From contig JAAELO010000186.1 in NCBI GenBank assembly GCA_024226555.1, positions 1-35,507 on the forward strand: a stretch of 35,507 nucleotides of DNA, read 5' to 3'. A program made the translations under genes and the position numbers. Of the stretch, positions 6,846 to 35,497 are shown piece by piece (position 1 is the first letter of the stretch; every line of letters begins with the position of its first letter). The DNA is from Desulfobacterales bacterium (lineage in GTDB: Bacteria; Desulfobacterota; Desulfobacteria; Desulfobacterales; JAAELO01). Under the pieces are notes generated by a model. That model saw only the letters and a list, made by a program, of their open reading frames with translations, made no database searches and was not told the origin of the DNA.

Positions 6846-7036
6846 AAGGGAATCTCTTCTAAGTAACACTTTTTATATATTATGTGTTATTAGGCAGTTA
6901 GGTTCCAGAATATCTATTCTGGAGGAGTCGCTAATAACTGTCTTTTGACCGAACTACAGCGTTGTTCGAAATAAAAAACTGTTGTAAAATCGCCTCGTTA
7001 TTTATTTCTTACCCTTGTATTTCAATCAAAATCCTA
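6846..7036. mobile_element. Compound MITE-like element, right end lost
   Basis: Begins AAGGGAATCTCTTCTAAGTAAC, runs through a mini-element with the perfect palindrome CCAGAATATCTATTCTGG, then a subtype A core (CTAATAACTGTC ... TTGTATTTCAATCAAAATCC). The right terminal repeat is missing. The mini-element plus core recur at 26340-26550, but there the mini-element is on the other side in inverted orientation. Confidence 0.8.
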
Positions 7037-7515
7037 AACACATACCCGAAAAATAATATAGGCTCAATGTATCTTTTTATGATTATACACTTTAAAGAAG
7101 CATACTCTTTTACAGATATGTGAACAGTGTCATTTTCTATTAAAAACAGGCTCAACCGAAATTATTAGCGGCAGTTTTTTCCACGGTTATTACCAGAAGT
7201 CACTTTCTACCCGTTTCCATCATTACTGGAAGATTCGAATTCGGCGCCTCCTGTTGAGAGGTCTAAATTCAAAGGTTTTAGAGTTGGACCGTTCTCAAAG
7301 TGTTACCTTCCGTACGCACATCTCGCTTTTTATATTATCCCCTTGCATTCAGAACGTTTTTCTGATCAATTCTGTACCGGTATTGAGATATTCCATGGAA
7401 ATATCTCATGTTTTCAACATTTTAATTCAATTTTTACACAATTTTGTGTGAGGAACGATTTAAAATAATCGGTTTTTAACCGTTTTGATTTAAATGATAT
7501 AAGAGAGGATAAAAA
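7037..7515. other. Intergenic region with a 23-bp palindrome
   Basis: No convincing gene. A 65-codon frame at 7254-7451 has no ribosome site and no recognisable content. GAGATATTCCATGGAAATATCTC (written as GAGATATTCC then ATGGAAATATCTC) at 7385-7407 is a near-perfect palindrome about 110 bp ahead of the next gene and could be an operator. AATCGGTTTTTAACCGTTTTG at about 7469-7488 is a second short inverted repeat. Confidence 0.4.
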
Positions 7516-22228: not shown

Positions 22229-23440
22229 TTATCCTTTTACAACAGCCAGAGGAAACAACTTAACAAGAGGTTTGATAAGATCAAGCTCCTGCTTGATAAC
22301 CTTATCGATATTCTTATAAGCCTGAGGAGCCTCACCAAGATCATGTGTCCCGGCTTTGTTTTTAAGGCGCTTCTTTTGCTTCTTCCATCTGTCACAAACA
22401 ATACCTTCCATGGCCTTGTCAGCTTCTGCTATGCTTAATCTTCTTGAAGCTTCCATGCGACCCATTGTTCTTCCGGCTCCGTGTGAACAGGATTCGAAAG
22501 ATTCAGAGTTTCCTTTTCCTTCCACAATATAGGAAGGAGCTCCCATTGATCCCGGAATTATACCTACTTCACCTTTCTTTGCAGAAGTTGCACCCTTTCT
22601 GTGTATCCAAAGCTCTTTATCGAAATGCTTTTCAAGGGCAGCATAATTATGGTGTATATTTGCACCCTCTTCGAATTTCACATCATTGAAGAAAGTCTTA
22701 AATACATCTTTGAAATTTTCCATAATTCTTTTTCTGTTTTCCATGGCATAGGCCAGGGACATATTCATATCTCGAATATACTCCTTACCCTCATCTGAAC
22801 CGGAAGGAAGGTAAGCAAGGTCTTTATTAGGAATAAAAAGACCGTTATCTTCGATATATTTTATTGCCACTTTGTTATGATATTGAGCAACCATATTTCC
22901 AAGGTTTCTTGACCCCGAATGGATCATAAGCCAGATTGTTCCATCTTCATCTCTCTGAACTTCAATAAAGTGGTTACCTCCACCTAACGTACCAAGGTTC
23001 TGTCTTGCAAGTTCAGCAATTCTGTTTGAATACCATCCGGCATCTTTAAACTCTTTTATATTATATTCAAATCCTTCCCATGATTGTTCCAATCTATGTG
23101 GATGTCCTTCACCAACAGGAATTGTCCCCTTAATTCGTTTTGTCATATCCCGCAAAAGTTGAATATTAGTTTCGGAAACATTCACATCTGTTTTCACAGC
23201 GCACATACCGCAGCCAATATCAACTCCAACAGCATTGGGGATTACGGCCTCTTCACAACCAATAACACCCCCAATTGGCATTCCATAGCCCTGATGGCAA
23301 TCGGGCATTAAAGCTATGTGTGAGTATACTTTCGGGTGATTAGCAAGGTTTTCCGCCTGGGCAAGTCCGCCATCCTCAAGGTCTTCACACCATGATTTTA
23401 TAGGTACTCTGTATGATTCTTTCTCTTTAGTCCATTCCAT
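22229..23440 (-). CDS. rtcB: RNA-splicing ligase RtcB
   Basis: 403 residues, the length of bacterial RtcB. It joins RNA 2',3'-cyclic phosphate or 3'-phosphate ends to 5'-OH ends using GTP and Mn2+. Key residues are intact: GVDIGCGMCA (Asp74, Cys77), GGGNHFIE (His157), HSGSRNLG (His174), NIHHNYA, HRKGATSA and SCSHGAGRTMGR with His320 as the guanylylated histidine. It starts 6 bp after rtcA, with GAGG overlapping the rtcA stop. Gene order is rtcA-rtcB-CPCC, unlike E. coli rtcBA. It is controlled by the sigma-54 promoter upstream of rtcA. Confidence 0.97.
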   Translation of the reverse strand: MEWTKEKESYRVPIKSWCEDLEDGGLAQAENLANHPKVYSHIALMPDCHQGYGMPIGGVIGCEEAVIPNAVGVDIGCGMCAVKTDVNVSETNIQLLRDMTKRIKGTIPVGEGHPHRLEQSWEGFEYNIKEFKDAGWYSNRIAELARQNLGTLGGGNHFIEVQRDEDGTIWLMIHSGSRNLGNMVAQYHNKVAIKYIEDNGLFIPNKDLAYLPSGSDEGKEYIRDMNMSLAYAMENRKRIMENFKDVFKTFFNDVKFEEGANIHHNYAALEKHFDKELWIHRKGATSAKKGEVGIIPGSMGAPSYIVEGKGNSESFESCSHGAGRTMGRMEASRRLSIAEADKAMEGIVCDRWKKQKKRLKNKAGTHDLGEAPQAYKNIDKVIKQELDLIKPLVKLFPLAVVKG

Positions 23441-23446
23441 TTTATT

Positions 23447-24466
23447 TTACCTCGTAACTTTAATTTCAAAAATATCTTCATTTATCTCTACTATTTCGAT
23501 TGTCACATCCAGAAATTTTTGAATTATATCTATATTTGTTATTGTATGATTTGTTGGTTTTACTGTTCTAAACGAACCTGATCCTGCCATTGCAAATGGT
23601 ATAAGAAGCTGATCCGCAAGATACTCAAAAACCGGAGCATCTTTTGACAGATATCTCTTAACCTTCTTAACAACGCCATTAGCAACCTGTTCAGCCTTAA
23701 CACCTTTGATTCCAAAACCTGTAAAAACCTCTGTTATATTCTCAGATTCGATTTCAACAGTTAATACATTTCCAGGGCCTTTGGAATTTTCCACATCTTG
23801 TGAAATCAGATCCTCACCATCAAAAAGCAGTTTTTTCCTGATCACATTAAGTTCCCGATCACATATCTTGTCAGGCAGATTGGTAACTATTGAAACGGCT
23901 CTTTTCCCCTTGATCTCACCTCTTTCAGAAAGGTCTAAAGGGGTAATAGTGTTAAAAGGTGTAATCTCAACAGTAAACCTTCCTCCACCAGCTGGATAAA
24001 AGCCATAGTTTTCAAGATCTACCTTAATATCTGCTCCCATCTTATTTAGAACAGGTATAAAAGACTTTGCCAGAAAATCAAATGGTGGTGCCATTGGATT
24101 ATGTGTTCCGCCTTCAAGCACAATTTTTGACTTTCCTTCAGCTTTTAAAAGAGCTGGCAGAACAGATTGTAAAACAAGGGTTGCACTTCCTGCTGTTCCT
24201 ATTTTGAACTCATATTCACCACTTTCAATCTCACCTGGATTAAATTCAAGAGTTGTTGAACCTATTATATTCCCGGAGCATTTAGCGCCTCCAATCTCAA
24301 CAGCGGCATTAACACAAGTCAGGTGTTGTCTCATCAGACCTGGTTTTCTTCGATTTGTACGGATGTTATTAATCTCAAAAGGTTTTCCTGTTATAAGCGA
24401 AAGTGCAAGCGAACTTCTTAAGATTTGTCCACCACCTTCTCCATATGATCCGTCAATTTTTATCAT
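23447..24466 (-). CDS. rtcA: RNA 3'-terminal phosphate cyclase RtcA
   Basis: 339 residues, standard for RtcA. It converts RNA 3'-phosphate to 2',3'-cyclic phosphate with ATP via a covalent His-AMP intermediate. Features: IDGSYGEGGGQILRSSLALS at the N-terminus, LEGGTHNPMAPPFDF, the family-typical PAGGGRFTVEI and the C-terminal TNHTITN with His307 as the probable adenylylated histidine. AAAGGA lies 7 bp ahead of the ATG. It is the first gene of the repair operon, with an 87-nt leader from the predicted sigma-54 start. Confidence 0.97.
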   Translation of the reverse strand: MIKIDGSYGEGGGQILRSSLALSLITGKPFEINNIRTNRRKPGLMRQHLTCVNAAVEIGGAKCSGNIIGSTTLEFNPGEIESGEYEFKIGTAGSATLVLQSVLPALLKAEGKSKIVLEGGTHNPMAPPFDFLAKSFIPVLNKMGADIKVDLENYGFYPAGGGRFTVEITPFNTITPLDLSERGEIKGKRAVSIVTNLPDKICDRELNVIRKKLLFDGEDLISQDVENSKGPGNVLTVEIESENITEVFTGFGIKGVKAEQVANGVVKKVKRYLSKDAPVFEYLADQLLIPFAMAGSGSFRTVKPTNHTITNIDIIQKFLDVTIEIVEINEDIFEIKVTR

Positions 24467-24698: not shown

Positions 24699-26285
24699 AT
24701 GAAAAAAAATGTCGTTATTGGTGTATTAGGATCAAATCTTGATAGTGGTAAGAGTGTAAAAAGGTGGGAGAGGTGGCGCCCTTCAATATCCCTTTGTCAG
24801 CATGAAGATTTCCTTGTGGACCGCTTTGAACTCATTTACCAGAAAAGATTTAAAAACCTTGTTAGTACTGTTGTTGAAGATATTAATGATGTATCACCTG
24901 AAACCAAAGTTAATACATTTCCTGTGGCTCTTAATAATCCATGGGATTTTGGAGAGGTTTACGGAGAACTGTACAACTTTGCAAAGAATTATAACTTTGA
25001 TCCGGATAACGAGGAATACCTTATACACATTACAACAGGAACCCATGTTTTACAGATCTGCATGTTCCTGCTCACTGAATCAAGATATTTTCCGGCAAAA
25101 CTGATCCAGTCAAGCCCTTCTCAAAAACGTAATGGTGAAAACCCGGGTGAATTTACAATTATAGATCTCGATCTGTCCAAATATGATAACATTGCAATGA
25201 GATTTTTAGAGGAGAAAAGAGATGACATATCACTCTTAAAATCTGGTATTGAAACCAAAAACAAAGAGTTTAATGCTCTGATTGAACGAATAGAGTATGT
25301 TGCCGGAAGAAGTTATGATCCAATGCTTCTAACAGGCCCAACAGGAGCCGGAAAATCAAGACTGGCAAGAAAGATCTTCGATCTTAAGAAATCCAAACAT
25401 CAGGTTAAAGGAAATTTTGTTGAGTTAAACTGTGCAACTCTTAAAGGCGATGCCGCTATGTCAGCACTTTTTGGACATAAAAAAGGAGCTTTCACAGGAG
25501 CCCTTGAACAAAGAGATGGTTTTCTAATGGCTGCAAATGATGGAATGCTCTTTTTAGACGAGATTGGTGAATTGGGAGCAGACGAACAAACCATGCTCCT
25601 GCGTGCAGTTGAAGAGAAATGCTTTATTCCCATGGGCTCAGATAGTGAAGTAACAAGTGATTTCCAACTGATATGCGGAACAAACAGAGATCTTGAAAAA
25701 AGAGTTACGGAAGGGAAATTCAGGGAGGACCTTCTTGCAAGGATTAACCTCTGGACATTCAAAATGCCCGGTTTAAACAAAAGAGTTGAAGATATTGAAC
25801 CAAACCTTACCTATGAAATTGAAGAATTCTTTGAAAAAAGTGGTGTAAGGGTGAGATTCAACAAGGAATCAAAAGACCTGTTCCTTAAATTTGCCAAATC
25901 CAAAGATGCAATATGGTCTGCAAATTTCAGGGATCTGAATGGCGCTGTAACAAGAATGGCAACCCTTGCAGAAAGAGGCATCATGAATAAAAATGTTGTT
26001 TCTGAAGAGATCGATAGGTTGAATAGTTCCTGGAAAGGTAAAGAGACAGATCATGACATTGAAATATTGAACGAAGTACTTGGTGAAGAGAAAGCAATCA
26101 ATCTTGATCTTTTTGATAAGGTTCAATTAGCTGAAGTAATAAGAGTCTGCAAGAAGTCAAAATCACTGTCAGAAGCTGGTAGAAAACTTTTTTCCATATC
26201 AAGGGAAAGTAAAAAGAAAGTAAATGATTCTGACAGGCTGAGGAAATATCTTGCACGGTTTGATCTGATATTTCCCTTTGAGTAG
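24699..26285 (+). CDS. rtcR: RtcR, sigma-54 activator of RNA repair genes
   Basis: 528 residues. The N-terminal CARF-related sensor domain (1-~180; GVLGSNLDSGK, RWERWRPSISLCQHED, HITTGTH at 110-116) is followed by an AAA+ domain with Walker A GPTGAGKS (213-220), the sigma-54 loop GAFTGA (263-268), Walker B LFLDE (284-288) and the arginine-finger region. The C-terminal Fis-type helix-turn-helix (about 475-528) is SLSEAGRKLFSISRESKKKV. In the family, RNA ends carrying 2',3'-cyclic phosphate, including tRNA fragments, relieve CARF repression and turn on rtcBA. It is divergent from rtcA. A copy of its last ~49 codons occurs at 28566. Confidence 0.97.
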   Translation: MKKNVVIGVLGSNLDSGKSVKRWERWRPSISLCQHEDFLVDRFELIYQKRFKNLVSTVVEDINDVSPETKVNTFPVALNNPWDFGEVYGELYNFAKNYNFDPDNEEYLIHITTGTHVLQICMFLLTESRYFPAKLIQSSPSQKRNGENPGEFTIIDLDLSKYDNIAMRFLEEKRDDISLLKSGIETKNKEFNALIERIEYVAGRSYDPMLLTGPTGAGKSRLARKIFDLKKSKHQVKGNFVELNCATLKGDAAMSALFGHKKGAFTGALEQRDGFLMAANDGMLFLDEIGELGADEQTMLLRAVEEKCFIPMGSDSEVTSDFQLICGTNRDLEKRVTEGKFREDLLARINLWTFKMPGLNKRVEDIEPNLTYEIEEFFEKSGVRVRFNKESKDLFLKFAKSKDAIWSANFRDLNGAVTRMATLAERGIMNKNVVSEEIDRLNSSWKGKETDHDIEILNEVLGEEKAINLDLFDKVQLAEVIRVCKKSKSLSEAGRKLFSISRESKKKVNDSDRLRKYLARFDLIFPFE

Positions 26286-30291: not shown

Positions 30292-31488
30292 ATGTCAAAA
30301 TTATTCACCCCCTCAAAAATAGGCACTTTGGAGCTGAAGAATCGTTTTGTTTGCTCAGCTACAGTGGAATGTCTGGTTTCAGAAGACAATATTATAACAG
30401 ATAAATATTTGAAAGTTCACAACAGACTTTCAAAAGGTGGTGTCGGACTGATTATACCCGGAAACTACTTTGTAAGTAAATCAGGGGTTGCTGTTGCCCG
30501 GAATTTAGTCATTGATAATGACAAAGTGATAGATGATCTACAGAAATTAACAAGTATTGCTCATGACAATGGGTCAAGAATAATTGCACAATTAAACCAT
30601 GGGGGGCGACAGTGCAGCCCTGAAGTTATCGGCCAAACACCTTTATCTCCATCCTCAGTGAAAGACAGTCTAACAGGAATTCGTCCTATAGAGATTAAAA
30701 CCGAAGAGATTAAAGAGACAATAAAGTCATTCGCAGAAGCAGCATTAAGAACTAAACAAGCAGGATTTGACGGAGTTCAAATAAATGCTGCACATGGATA
30801 TCTGATCAATCAATTTTTGAGCACACGTACAAACCGAAGAAAAGATAACTGGGGAGGCTCACTTGAAAACCGAATGCGTTTTCTTATAGCAATATATGAA
30901 GGTATTCGAAATAAGGTGGGTAAGACGTTTCCTGTATTAGTTAAAATAAATGCCCAGGATAATATAAAAAAAGGTGTTACACTGTTTGAGAGTATTGCTT
31001 TATGCAAAAAGCTGGAATCAATTGGAATTGATGCCATTGAAATCAGTGGTGGGATAAAAGAAACCGGTTTTACTACAACCAAAGGGGATATTCCTGAAGA
31101 TATACTACTTACGAATGTTAACATGCTGAAACGTATGTTGTTTAAATTTATCAGGGGAAAATTAAAAAAGGCTGCTAAATTTCAAGAAGGCTATCATCTA
31201 TCTTGCGCAACAGCTATCAAAAATAGCGTTAGTGTTCCTATTATCTTAGTTGGGGGAATAAGAAGAAGAGAGATGATGGAAGGTATCCTTGAAAACGGAA
31301 ATGCTGACTTTGTTTCCATGTCTCGTCCTTTTATCCGACAACCAAACCTGGTTAATAAATTATTAGAAAAACCCGACTCAGAGTGTATTGCTTGCGTTAA
31401 TTGCAATAGATGTACTGTAGAAATTACTGTTAATAATAAACCTTTGCGGTGTTACTATATCCCACAAAAAAAAGAAGTTAGTAAATAA
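30292..31488 (+). CDS. Old yellow enzyme family NADH:flavin oxidoreductase
   Basis: 398 residues forming one TIM barrel that binds FMN. Evidence: LFTPSKIGTLELKNRFVCSA, AQLNHGGRQ, INAAHGYLINQFLSTRTNRR followed by DNWGGSLENRMRF, and VPIILVGGIR near the end, all family signatures. The C-terminal CIACVNCNRC plus LRCYY supplies a cysteine cluster resembling the 4Fe-4S site of 2,4-dienoyl-CoA-reductase-type members, but the second flavin/NAD domain of that enzyme is absent. Substrate probably an unsaturated carbonyl compound; not determinable here. The ribosome site (AAAGGAATTT) is rather far from the ATG. Confidence 0.92.
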   Translation: MSKLFTPSKIGTLELKNRFVCSATVECLVSEDNIITDKYLKVHNRLSKGGVGLIIPGNYFVSKSGVAVARNLVIDNDKVIDDLQKLTSIAHDNGSRIIAQLNHGGRQCSPEVIGQTPLSPSSVKDSLTGIRPIEIKTEEIKETIKSFAEAALRTKQAGFDGVQINAAHGYLINQFLSTRTNRRKDNWGGSLENRMRFLIAIYEGIRNKVGKTFPVLVKINAQDNIKKGVTLFESIALCKKLESIGIDAIEISGGIKETGFTTTKGDIPEDILLTNVNMLKRMLFKFIRGKLKKAAKFQEGYHLSCATAIKNSVSVPIILVGGIRRREMMEGILENGNADFVSMSRPFIRQPNLVNKLLEKPDSECIACVNCNRCTVEITVNNKPLRCYYIPQKKEVSK

Positions 31489-31495
31489 TGTATAT

Positions 31496-31627
31496 AGGGA
31501 ACCTCTAATAATTAGAATTTTGGATAAAATACAAGGCATTTCAAAAAATAACGAGCCGATTTTATTACAGTTTTTTTTGGAAATAACAAAGTGTTTTGCC
31601 AAAAGAACAGTTATTAGAGATTCCCTA
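31496..31627. mobile_element. MITE-like element, subtype A, reverse orientation
   Basis: TATAGGGAACCTCTAATAATT ... ACAGTTATTAGAGATTCCCTATA. The core reads as the reverse complement of 35366-35497. TA repeats at both ends look like a TA target duplication. It begins 7 bp after the oxidoreductase stop and could end its transcript. Confidence 0.88.
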
Positions 31628-31765
31628 TATTTATAAAAACTTGATTCATTTGTTTTCCACATACAAAAACTATGTTGTAATCACCAAAATATGTCAATTT
31701 GTCACGGAGGTCCCTAATGTCCTCCTTATTTATTAGAGGTTCTCAAGATTCAATTTAGTATAGAA

Positions 31766-31794
31766 TTGTCACTTTATAAAATATGTGATAGATT
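31766..31794 (+). promoter_or_regulatory. Possible promoter ahead of the permuted tRNA
   Basis: TTGTCA, a 17-bp spacer, then TAGATT. Predicted start near 31801, 37 bp before the tRNA 3' half. Confidence 0.4.
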
Positions 31795-31837
31795 ATTTTA
31801 AAAAGGATTATGGATCATTTCCTTCAGAAATTCGAAA

Positions 31838-31918
31838 TCAGGTGCCGTAAGGCTTCGCAGGTTCGAATCCTGCCTTCTGAAAAATTTTCAGATGTAGCAA
31901 AGTGGCAAATGCGCCTGA
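31838..31918 (+). tRNA. Candidate circularly permuted class II tRNA (3' half before 5' half)
   Basis: The 3' half comes first: anticodon-stem strand TCAGG (31838-31842), long variable arm TGCCGTAAGGCTTC with a GCC/GGC stem, T arm GCAGG-TTCGAAT-CCTGC (31857-31873), acceptor strand CTTCTGA (31874-31880), then A. Six bases later the 5' half follows: acceptor strand TCAGATG (31888-31894), TA, D arm GCAAAGTGGCAAATGC with the GG of the D loop, G, and anticodon-stem strand CCTGA (31914-31918). The acceptor strands pair 6 of 7 (one T-T mismatch), the anticodon stem 5 of 5. Reassembled, this is a complete ~82-nt class II (Leu/Ser-type) tRNA. If joined at position 32/33 the loop reads CTCGAAA, anticodon CGA, but the junction is a guess. 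Alternative: the remnant of two tandem copies or an attachment site. Confidence 0.5.
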
Positions 31919-31927
31919 CCATTATAT

Positions 31928-31962
31928 TTCGGAAAGGCATATTTTATATATGTCTTTCCGAA
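31928..31962. other. Long hairpin after the tRNA 5' half
   Basis: TTCGGAAAGGCATA pairs with TATGTCTTTCCGAA (13 pairs plus one G-T). The T tract on the plus strand comes 10 bp later (CCATTTTTTATT), so it is an imperfect terminator for the tRNA transcript. It may also end the hydrolase transcript from the other side. Confidence 0.6.
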
Positions 31963-31976
31963 TGCTTCTCCATTTT

Positions 31977-32996
31977 TTATTGTAGGGAATCAAAGAATTC
32001 AAATACTCTTTTCTCAACACTTTTATGAATTTTTTGTCTGTTTTTGTCTATACAAATGGGTATATTAGCCCGTATACCCCTTTCAGTACAGATAGGAAGA
32101 AAACTAAAATGATCACTTCCATCAACAATACTAATGTGATTCTTTGGTAGTTGCAGAAATAGATGAGAGCCTATTCGCAACCCTACTTTTTTGTTATCTG
32201 CAATCAAAATAAAGTAATTTTTAAGACTATTAAAACTTTGAAAATTAAGAGATCTTCCATACCCCGGATCTAATGCAACAACAGCTTTTATTCTTTCGTC
32301 CCTGTAAGATGTTTCCACAATTTTCGGATCGAATTTTTTAAAGTTTACCTTTTTGATATCTGAACACTTCTCATAGAAAAAAGGATCCTGGGATTTGCAA
32401 TCTGGATCAAGAGGATTCTGAAATTTCTTGAATGACAGTTTGGCACCCTTTAAGAGTAAAACAGAACTACCTCCCATGGAATGTCCTACTGCAAATATTC
32501 TTTTCTTGTCAATTCTACTCTTAAACGTAGACTTTTTTAATAAATTATCTAAAATAAACCGAAAATCATTAGCCCTGTGCCATACCCGGATTACACCAAA
32601 AACGGAGTCTTGCCCTGTTGTATTGTTTGGGTGATTGACTGAAGCTGCTATATAACCACGTTTTACAAAATATTCTGCAAGCCAGGCCAGATTAAGATTA
32701 TTGCCACCAGAGCCATGGGACAAAAGAAGTAGAGGATATTTTTTACTTCTTTTACTTATTGGAATTTTTTCAATTCCCTTAAACCCTTTGAACACCGAAC
32801 TGTTAACCTGATTCGACTTCTTTTTTGTATCACCAGGGTACCAGACAATTACTGATAGTTTTCTAAATCTAACACTATCGTACATAACCATATTACGATA
32901 CCCAACACTATTTTCAGAAGCAATTAAATCAAAATTAATGCCAAATACAAGAAATAAAACGAATACCAAGAAATATTTTTTAAAGTTATATTGCAT
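31977..32996 (-). CDS. Secreted alpha/beta hydrolase
   Basis: 339 residues. Signal peptide about 1-26 (ending FDLIASE). LLLSHGSGGNN supplies the oxyanion region, AVGHSMGGSSVLL the nucleophile elbow (Ser173), VVALDPGYG follows, and VDGSDHFSFLP near residue 300 holds the likely catalytic His. The plan (N-terminal YRNMVMYDSVR...WYPGD, then SHGSGG) is that of the predicted dienelactone hydrolase / PAF-acetylhydrolase-like group of secreted esterases. The C-terminal insert has cysteine pairs (DCKSQDPFFYEKC, PICTERG...PICIDK) that could form disulfides, fitting export. Monocistronic on the minus strand. Confidence 0.88.
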   Translation of the reverse strand: MQYNFKKYFLVFVLFLVFGINFDLIASENSVGYRNMVMYDSVRFRKLSVIVWYPGDTKKKSNQVNSSVFKGFKGIEKIPISKRSKKYPLLLLSHGSGGNNLNLAWLAEYFVKRGYIAASVNHPNNTTGQDSVFGVIRVWHRANDFRFILDNLLKKSTFKSRIDKKRIFAVGHSMGGSSVLLLKGAKLSFKKFQNPLDPDCKSQDPFFYEKCSDIKKVNFKKFDPKIVETSYRDERIKAVVALDPGYGRSLNFQSFNSLKNYFILIADNKKVGLRIGSHLFLQLPKNHISIVDGSDHFSFLPICTERGIRANIPICIDKNRQKIHKSVEKRVFEFFDSLQ

Positions 32997-35160: not shown

Positions 35161-35365
35161 AGATATTTCTCATTATTTTCAATATTGTTCAAAAAAAATC
35201 ATTTTTAACATTTCACTTTAATACACATTAAGACTATGTTTTACTGAATGTATCAGGAGCATAGTTAAGTGTTTATTATCAAATAATCAACCTAAAAATA
35301 TAGATTCTTAGAATATGAATTAAGAAATCAGTTCATTTAAAACAATTAAGGGATTTTCAGGTTTA
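35161..35365. other. Intergenic, no gene seen
   Basis: AT-rich upstream region of the GDPD gene. No coding frame or clear promoter motif picked out. Confidence 0.4.
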
Positions 35366-35497
35366 TGGGAATCTCTAATAACCTCTCTTTTGACGAAATA
35401 CATTGTTATTTCCAAAAAAAACTGTAATAAAATCGGCTCGTTATTTTTTGAAATGCCTTGTATTTCATCCAAAATTTTAATTATTAGAGATTCCCCT
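35366..35497. mobile_element. MITE-like element, subtype A
   Basis: TTATGGGAATCTCTAATAACC ... AATTATTAGAGATTCCCCTAAG, about 132 bp. Its core is almost identical to the reverse complement of 31496-31627. Confidence 0.88.

Follow-up and report, generated by a model that had tools for sequence, protein, structure and literature searches.

The window, by which we mean the whole stretch of 35,507 nucleotides analyzed here, is contig C186 of a Desulfobacterales draft genome (G000; 904 contigs, 7.69 Mb, 97.95% complete). At 31838-31918, the parts of a tRNA-like sequence follow each other in the order anticodon-stem 3' strand, variable arm, T arm, acceptor hairpin, D arm and anticodon-stem 5' strand. 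This is the order given in the original prediction, and the stem pairing claimed there, with 6 of 7 pairs in the acceptor stem and 5 of 5 in the anticodon stem, was also found. The features of the locus and of the RNA-repair genes in the window were as follows.

22229-23440, minus strand: rtcB, RNA ligase (PF01139, E 7e-111)
23447-24466, minus strand: rtcA, RNA 3'-phosphate cyclase (PF01137, E 2.3e-79)
24699-26285, plus strand: rtcR, sigma-54 activator of RNA repair (PF06956, E 3e-83)
31803-31826, plus strand: 5' flank with outer strand, internal loop, 5' strand of helix P2 and UUUCCUUC bulge (pattern match, 2 mismatches)
31831-31837, plus strand: loop-like TTCGAAA before the anticodon-stem 3' strand (sequence)
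31838-31842, plus strand: anticodon-stem 3' strand TCAGG (5 of 5 pairs with 31914-31918)
31844-31853, plus strand: variable arm GCC-GTAA-GGC, class II-like (ARAGORN drawing of the reordered halves)
31857-31873, plus strand: T arm GCAGG-TTCGAAT-CCTGC (analysis of the reordered halves)
31874-31880, plus strand: 3' acceptor strand CTTCTGA (acceptor hairpin, no CCA)
31881-31887, plus strand: acceptor linker, 7 nt (acceptor hairpin)
31888-31894, plus strand: 5' acceptor strand TCAGATG (acceptor hairpin)
31897-31912, plus strand: D arm GCA/TGC with a 3 bp stem (analysis of the reordered halves)
31914-31918, plus strand: anticodon-stem 5' strand CCTGA (5 of 5 pairs with 31838-31842)
31919-31940, plus strand: 3' flank, degenerate, with P2 partner and outer strand unrecognisable (broken pairs in the alignment to covariance model R1, see below)

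In the unaltered window, ARAGORN called no tRNA, and 5S rRNA alone scored above the Rfam gathering scores. The linker, previously given as 6 bp, measures 7 nt and shortens to 6 only when the first of these is assigned to position 73. The sequences CGAAAT (31833-31838) and ATTTCG (31926-31931), which had been proposed to pair as outer flanks, are both present, but T31838 is taken by the anticodon stem, and the RNA family described below has a different flanking helix. A fold of 31800-31965 showed a strong hairpin at about 31927-31963, directly after the unit and overlapping the place of the apparently lost 3' flank. Identical 20-mers over the T arm occur in tRNA genes of the same and related genomes. 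It was also noted by eye that MITE-type short inverted repeats (GGGAACCTCTAATA ... TATTAGAGATTCCC) flank the unit at 31494-31633 and about 35320-35480.

A search of 389 genomes of the order with the Rfam model for YrlA gave nothing above the cut-off and drew attention to contig C755, which belongs to the same genome. This contig contains six consecutive units on a common stem at 31457-32965; two intact tRNA-Pro(UGG) genes are interspersed among the units. The units u0 to u4 have permuted tRNA heads, while u5 is truncated and has a T arm only, and several units keep an anticodon-loop-like sequence. All units start with GAGGAYTA, followed by helix P2 and then by UUCCUUCU, and P2 has changed on both sides between units. 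In a five-row alignment of the array, 94.9% of the cells were paired and 18 of 35 pairs had changed on both sides; none of 500 shuffles was as high, and slid controls reached at most 52% paired cells. The repeats GGGAACCTCTAATA ... TATTAGAGATTCCC were also seen by eye inside and after the array (locus L104, about 6909-7046 and from 7969).

The covariance model R1 was built from the five units u0 to u4, with the window excluded. It matched the window over its full length at 31803-31940 (30.9 bits, E 0.0043 in the 7.69 Mb genome). Ten further matches in the genome had E up to 1: the six C755 units, plus four sites within or next to intact tRNA genes. The 5' flank at 31803-31826, where the R1 match begins, is homologous to the C755 units: a pattern for the 5' stem strand and bulge matched it with 2 mismatches at 17 fixed bases. 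Allowing up to 2 mismatches, this pattern occurred in the window, in the six C755 units and at four further sites of the genome, 11 places in all, compared with 2 for a reversed-pattern control. The permuted order is thus not isolated, as sibling units have the same order in the same genome and elsewhere.

The outer helix and P2 of the window copy contain broken pairs in the R1 alignment, and the best 8-bp partner for P2 pairs at 7 of 8 positions, which is no better than in shuffled sequence; this leads us to read the copy as a decayed orphan. It failed the E cut (5e-5) of the 27-unit alignment described below, and it has no adjoining gene of the MXAN_6230/SCO0854 family, the gene for this protein being located on C755. 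The locus is probably a stray, orphan and decayed copy of a Y-RNA-like small RNA; its differences may instead reflect divergence. None of the 40 relatives compared was from the same family or genus as the window genome.

The genome has 58 Rfam tRNA matches, and ARAGORN gave 46 distinct tRNA sequences in the fetched loci. All but one of them (45 of 46) have a terminal CCA, which is missing only from a tRNA-Trp-like sequence on C616. A check for an intact tRNA of the same kind as the window unit found tRNA-Ser with the anticodons UGA, GCU and GGA among the 46, and none with CGA. Separately, we noted a tRNA with anticodon CUA, called tRNA-Pyl by ARAGORN (L049, G000:C870:629-704), and a tRNA-Asp (L057, G000:C524:4909-4984) that carries an uncommon anticodon, AUC, and has diverged from the regular tRNA-Asp(GUC).

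In half order, short linker and the absence of an encoded CCA, the unit resembles the permuted tRNA genes known from algae and one archaeon, as portrayed in an excerpt of PMC3978253. It could therefore be taken for a true permuted tRNA-Ser(CGA) gene, with RtcB as the ligase of its pre-tRNA and RNase P and RNase Z as the processing nucleases. ARAGORN indeed took the reordered 82 nt as tRNA-Ser(cga), but only with joints that leave a 7-nt loop of the TTCGAAA type; other joints gave other or undefined anticodons, or no call. The lack of an intact tRNA-Ser(CGA) among the tRNAs read and the presence of rtcB within the window also favor a permuted gene, and the same excerpt states that CCA is added later to permuted pre-tRNAs, with intervening sequences of 1-74 bp. 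The units differ from the genes in that excerpt in having no bulge-helix-bulge, no matching tRNA identity elements and a stem common to all units.

Inspection of the folds of the window locus and its siblings revealed a long one-sided loop where a bulge-helix-bulge would be expected. The acceptor ends in the window are closed by the short linker without CCA, and the bases T1-A72 and A73 stand against G1-C72 and G73 in the three tRNA-Ser of the genome, so that the isotype identity elements of a working tRNA are lacking. The most similar intact tRNA shared the isotype of the anticodon in one of five C755 units (u0, Gly) and not in the window. By the wobble rule, tRNA-Ser(UGA) should read UCG. 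The siblings have a common covarying stem with a conserved bulge, some related units are stems without any tRNA head, and two Ro60 loci have the same architecture. Splicing to a mature tRNA was unsupported, and we regard a permuted tRNA gene as very unlikely.

The intact tRNA-Pro genes between the C755 units and the repeat elements seen by eye around units would fit recombination debris from a tandem tRNA array or an integrase site, the alternative raised in the original prediction. For the family as a whole, this was contradicted by the covarying common stems, the same order in other organisms and the confinement to one strand, and such an origin is extremely improbable.

The C755 array begins 14 nt after the end of a 748-aa ORF. 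The encoded protein had no Pfam match and matched the NCBIfam family NF041916 (MXAN_6230/SCO0854 RING domain-containing family; RING-TerD) at E 1.2e-96 with 324.7 bits, below the equivalog cut-off of 600; the description of NF041916 names no RNA partner. With this protein as the query, matches were obtained in 8 of the 389 genomes of the order, including its own, and those in the other 7 covered about 100-120 residues in the TerD part; nothing beyond such TerD-length stretches was matched in the other 388 genomes. Using tblastn, relatives were identified in 31 plasmid records, 15 of which matched at least 80% of the query, and in 11 phage records, 2 of which did so (near-duplicates included).

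Among the genes near the family gene are rtcR (Variovorax), rtcB together with tRNAs (Rhodococcus phage Weasels2), an RNA ligase gene (Vibrio plasmid), and tRNAs along with a nucleotidyltransferase gene (Rhodobacter phage RcXuper). R1 matched beside the family gene in Weasels2 (60.1 bits), RcXuper (48.6 bits) and the Vibrio plasmid (31.6 bits), where a permuted-head unit follows the gene, a permuted-head unit precedes the gene, and a stem without a tRNA head follows the gene, respectively. Another match in RcXuper, with 31.5 bits, lies over an intact tRNA and was left uncounted. In 7 of the first 10 homologue loci fetched, R1 gave nothing at E <0.01, including Variovorax, in which two units were recognized by eye; four were recognized by eye in Weasels2. 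We also observed a permuted tmRNA directly before the stem-RNA array in RcXuper (L173, 2736-3158), and a tmRNA and several tRNAs near the family gene in the phage contig MT835874 (L170, 808-1105).

A viral search with the C755 protein alone gave no matches, and an alignment of ten family proteins was used to collect 80 IMG/VR loci, the best 80 of 93, which hold 66 distinct proteins; one of them (L247) has the length and array of Weasels2. All 110 R1 matches in these loci at E up to 1 were located on the strand of the gene, and some of them, for example in L245, may be ordinary tRNAs. Sixteen matches scored above 56 bits, or 14 without the duplicate locus L249. Among the 65 best matches (E up to 0.03), 46 were no more than 600 nt from the ORF; they fell in 29 of the 80 loci, duplicates included.

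Motifs were counted in one locus per distinct protein (66 loci), with sites within 600 nt of the ORF considered to be near. The motif CTTCCTTCT occurred near the ORF 104 times in sense and never in antisense orientation (45 of 66 loci), TCCTTCTA 103 times in sense and twice in antisense (47 of 66 loci), and TACTTCTA 28 and 4 times, while TACTTCG showed no strand bias (3 sense, 4 antisense). Farther from the ORF, the sense and antisense counts were 14 and 8 for CTTCCTTCT and 20 and 11 for TCCTTCTA. A perfect partner for the 8-mer upstream of TCCTTCT was present at 73 of 136 sites, compared with 20 after shuffling. An alignment of 27 units, obtained with R1 from 18 chosen sources at an E cut of 5e-5 and with rows fitted to the model, had 93.1% of its cells paired versus 62.1% in shuffled and 40-48% in slid controls, and 271 cells changed on both sides versus 79 after shuffling. 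All 9 pairs of P2 were compensatory; in the 21 rows from outside C755, P2 was 92% paired and again 9 of 9 pairs had changed on both sides. In its architecture, covariation, co-location and strand bias, this is one stem family with two kinds of head, linked on the same strand to one protein family.

The structure predicted for a viral family member of 711 aa (pLDDT 85.4, pTM 0.82) suggests a helical part up to about residue 425, a TerD-like domain and C-terminal helices. In Foldseek searches with the full model, TerD was the only match at E up to 0.001, and no Ro60 was among the 50 matches listed. VIA-align 2 placed TerD proteins first (Z 13.1-15.8), with some single-domain rows also above Ro60, which ranked 8 and 16: the Ro60 structure 1yvp aligned over 324 residues (Z 6.6, rmsd 4.3) and 2nvo over 272 residues (Z 6.0, rmsd 4.7), and most other helical rows over about 70-105 residues. 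With the N-terminal helical domain modeled alone (pLDDT 85.7, pTM 0.69), the Ro60 of phage phiLo (9l5y) ranked second (Z 8.0, rmsd 4.0, 237 residues), tied with helical-repeat proteins aligning about 90-105 residues, the best of which was 7z8t (Z 8.8 over 96), and human Ro60 (9nf8) aligned over 261 residues (Z 6.6, rmsd 7.9); according to the aligner's own warning, such Z values may mean merely a common helical arrangement. Foldseek gave nothing at E up to 0.001 for this domain, and no Ro60 among the 50 matches listed. Pfam scans of the C755 protein and five viral members contained no TROVE domain, and profile comparison with TROVE gave nothing (hhalign probability 0.2). The modest match of the predicted fold to Ro60 agrees with the RNA evidence and is a lead, not a demonstration.

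The Rfam model for YrlA (RF02553) matched the window over its full length with 18.8 bits (E 0.18; gathering score 69). This was the lowest E among five sub-threshold Rfam matches at the locus, of which another family reached 21.9 bits. In the alignment, the tRNA-like head stands in T-acceptor-D order on a terminal stem, as in RF02553. A C755 unit scored 45.4 bits with YrlA, and Ro60-linked units in two other genomes of the order, G059 and G018, 43.4 and 39.7 bits.

R1 matched 14 of the 389 genomes of the order at E 0.001, its own included. Eight of the other 13 contained ordinary tandem tRNA genes, which can reach 50.6 bits with R1, and were rejected; 5 did not. In G018 and G059, the unit was located directly upstream (5') of a TROVE gene, for which the Ro60-vWA model was above the cut-off in G018 and below it in G059; a short tRNA-Leu called by ARAGORN over the unit in G018 was taken as spurious. 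TROVE gave no match in G038 and G092, which belong to one genus, nor in G000, and a sub-threshold match in G006, where the anticodon stem of the R1 match was unconvincing. In both G038 and G092, two adjacent stems differ in their heads. One head is permuted; the other is tRNA-like in the ordinary, unpermuted order, and ARAGORN called it tRNA-Ile(TAT) in L133 and left it undefined in L132, the loci from these two genomes.

The stem formed from both ends and the head order of T arm, acceptor hairpin and D arm are shared with YrlA, whose head order is described in an excerpt of PMC8394870. Unlike YrlA, the family scores below the gathering score, has a UUCCUUCUA-type bulge and an anticodon-loop-like sequence in several units, and adjoins a gene other than Ro60 in most loci seen here. 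The likeness to Ro60/Rsr consists of the two loci of the order that pair a TROVE gene with such an RNA and possibly of the fold predicted for the MXAN_6230/SCO0854 family, which modestly matches Ro60; this family differs in having no detectable sequence similarity to Ro60 and a TerD-like domain in place of the vWA domain. Jumbo phages with ROT/TROVE proteins and a tRNA-like partner are mentioned in an excerpt of PMC7824862.

The units could also be canonical Ro60-type Y RNAs (YrlA) with the Ro60 partner lost or unassembled, in which case the association with the MXAN_6230 family would be secondary. The E of YrlA, the lowest at the locus, and the C755 score, which is as high as those of the Ro60-linked units, speak for this, as do the rtcR, rtcA and rtcB genes 5.5-9.6 kb from the window unit, given that rsr-yrlBA-rtcBA operons are described in an excerpt of PMC7790460. 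On the other hand, no TROVE (PF05731) candidate was identified in two tests of the 97.95% complete draft genome, the scores remain under 69, and the arrays adjoin another protein family in dozens of viral loci. We consider this unlikely. The distance of 5.5 kb between the window unit and rtcR may itself be a coincidence. The nearest named RtcA relatives were from Desulfosarcina (60%) and Desulfobacula (58%); at the RtcA-linked loci of named genomes (Desulfobacula, Desulfosarcina and 3 more), R1 matched 0 of 5 and Rfam 0 of 3, and a general link of the units to rtcA is therefore not claimed.

Taken together, the window locus is likely to be an orphan, probably decayed copy of a tRNA-capped Y-RNA-like RNA, from a Ro60-like particle with another protein partner and a tie to RNA repair. 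Intact members consist of an outer helix, an internal loop, the covarying helix P2, the conserved UUCCUUCUA-type bulge and a head. In some members the head is no more than a short loop; in others it is a tRNA-like cloverleaf that sits on the stem through its anticodon arm and has a loop-closed acceptor stem. Because such a head joins the stem through the anticodon arm, its halves appear in 3'-then-5' order and no splicing is needed. We infer that the RNAs are expressed and functional, and that the neighboring protein, with its helical part and TerD-like domain, would bind the stem in the manner of Ro60 and Y RNA. The tRNA head may serve as a mimic for tRNA-handling enzymes or as a decoy in RNA damage and repair, although a pure mimic would not need the anticodon-loop-like sequence that several units retain. 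Given the neighbors rtcR, rtcB, ligase and tRNAs, the system may act when tRNAs are cut.

More broadly, we lean toward a joint reading in which the MXAN_6230/SCO0854 proteins are Ro60-like RNA platforms and the stem-RNA arrays in phages, plasmids and bacteria, some with a tRNA-like head attached through the anticodon arm, are their cognate RNAs, forming a second, TerD-bearing branch of the Ro60/Y-RNA type tied to tRNA damage and repair. We recognized no paper linking TerD or MXAN_6230 proteins to Y RNAs in a literature search. Burroughs and Aravind reportedly mentioned a novel tRNA-like RNA with Band-7 proteins in 2016, and such RNAs may thus have been described earlier. To our knowledge, no particle of this type other than Ro60 and its Y RNAs has been well described. 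If our reading is correct, an uncharacterized family, named after SCO0854 and MXAN_6230, would gain a testable function, and another protein family, common in viral contigs, would possess arrays of Y-RNA-like RNAs of its own. It would also explain "permuted tRNA" sequences in bacteria without splicing.
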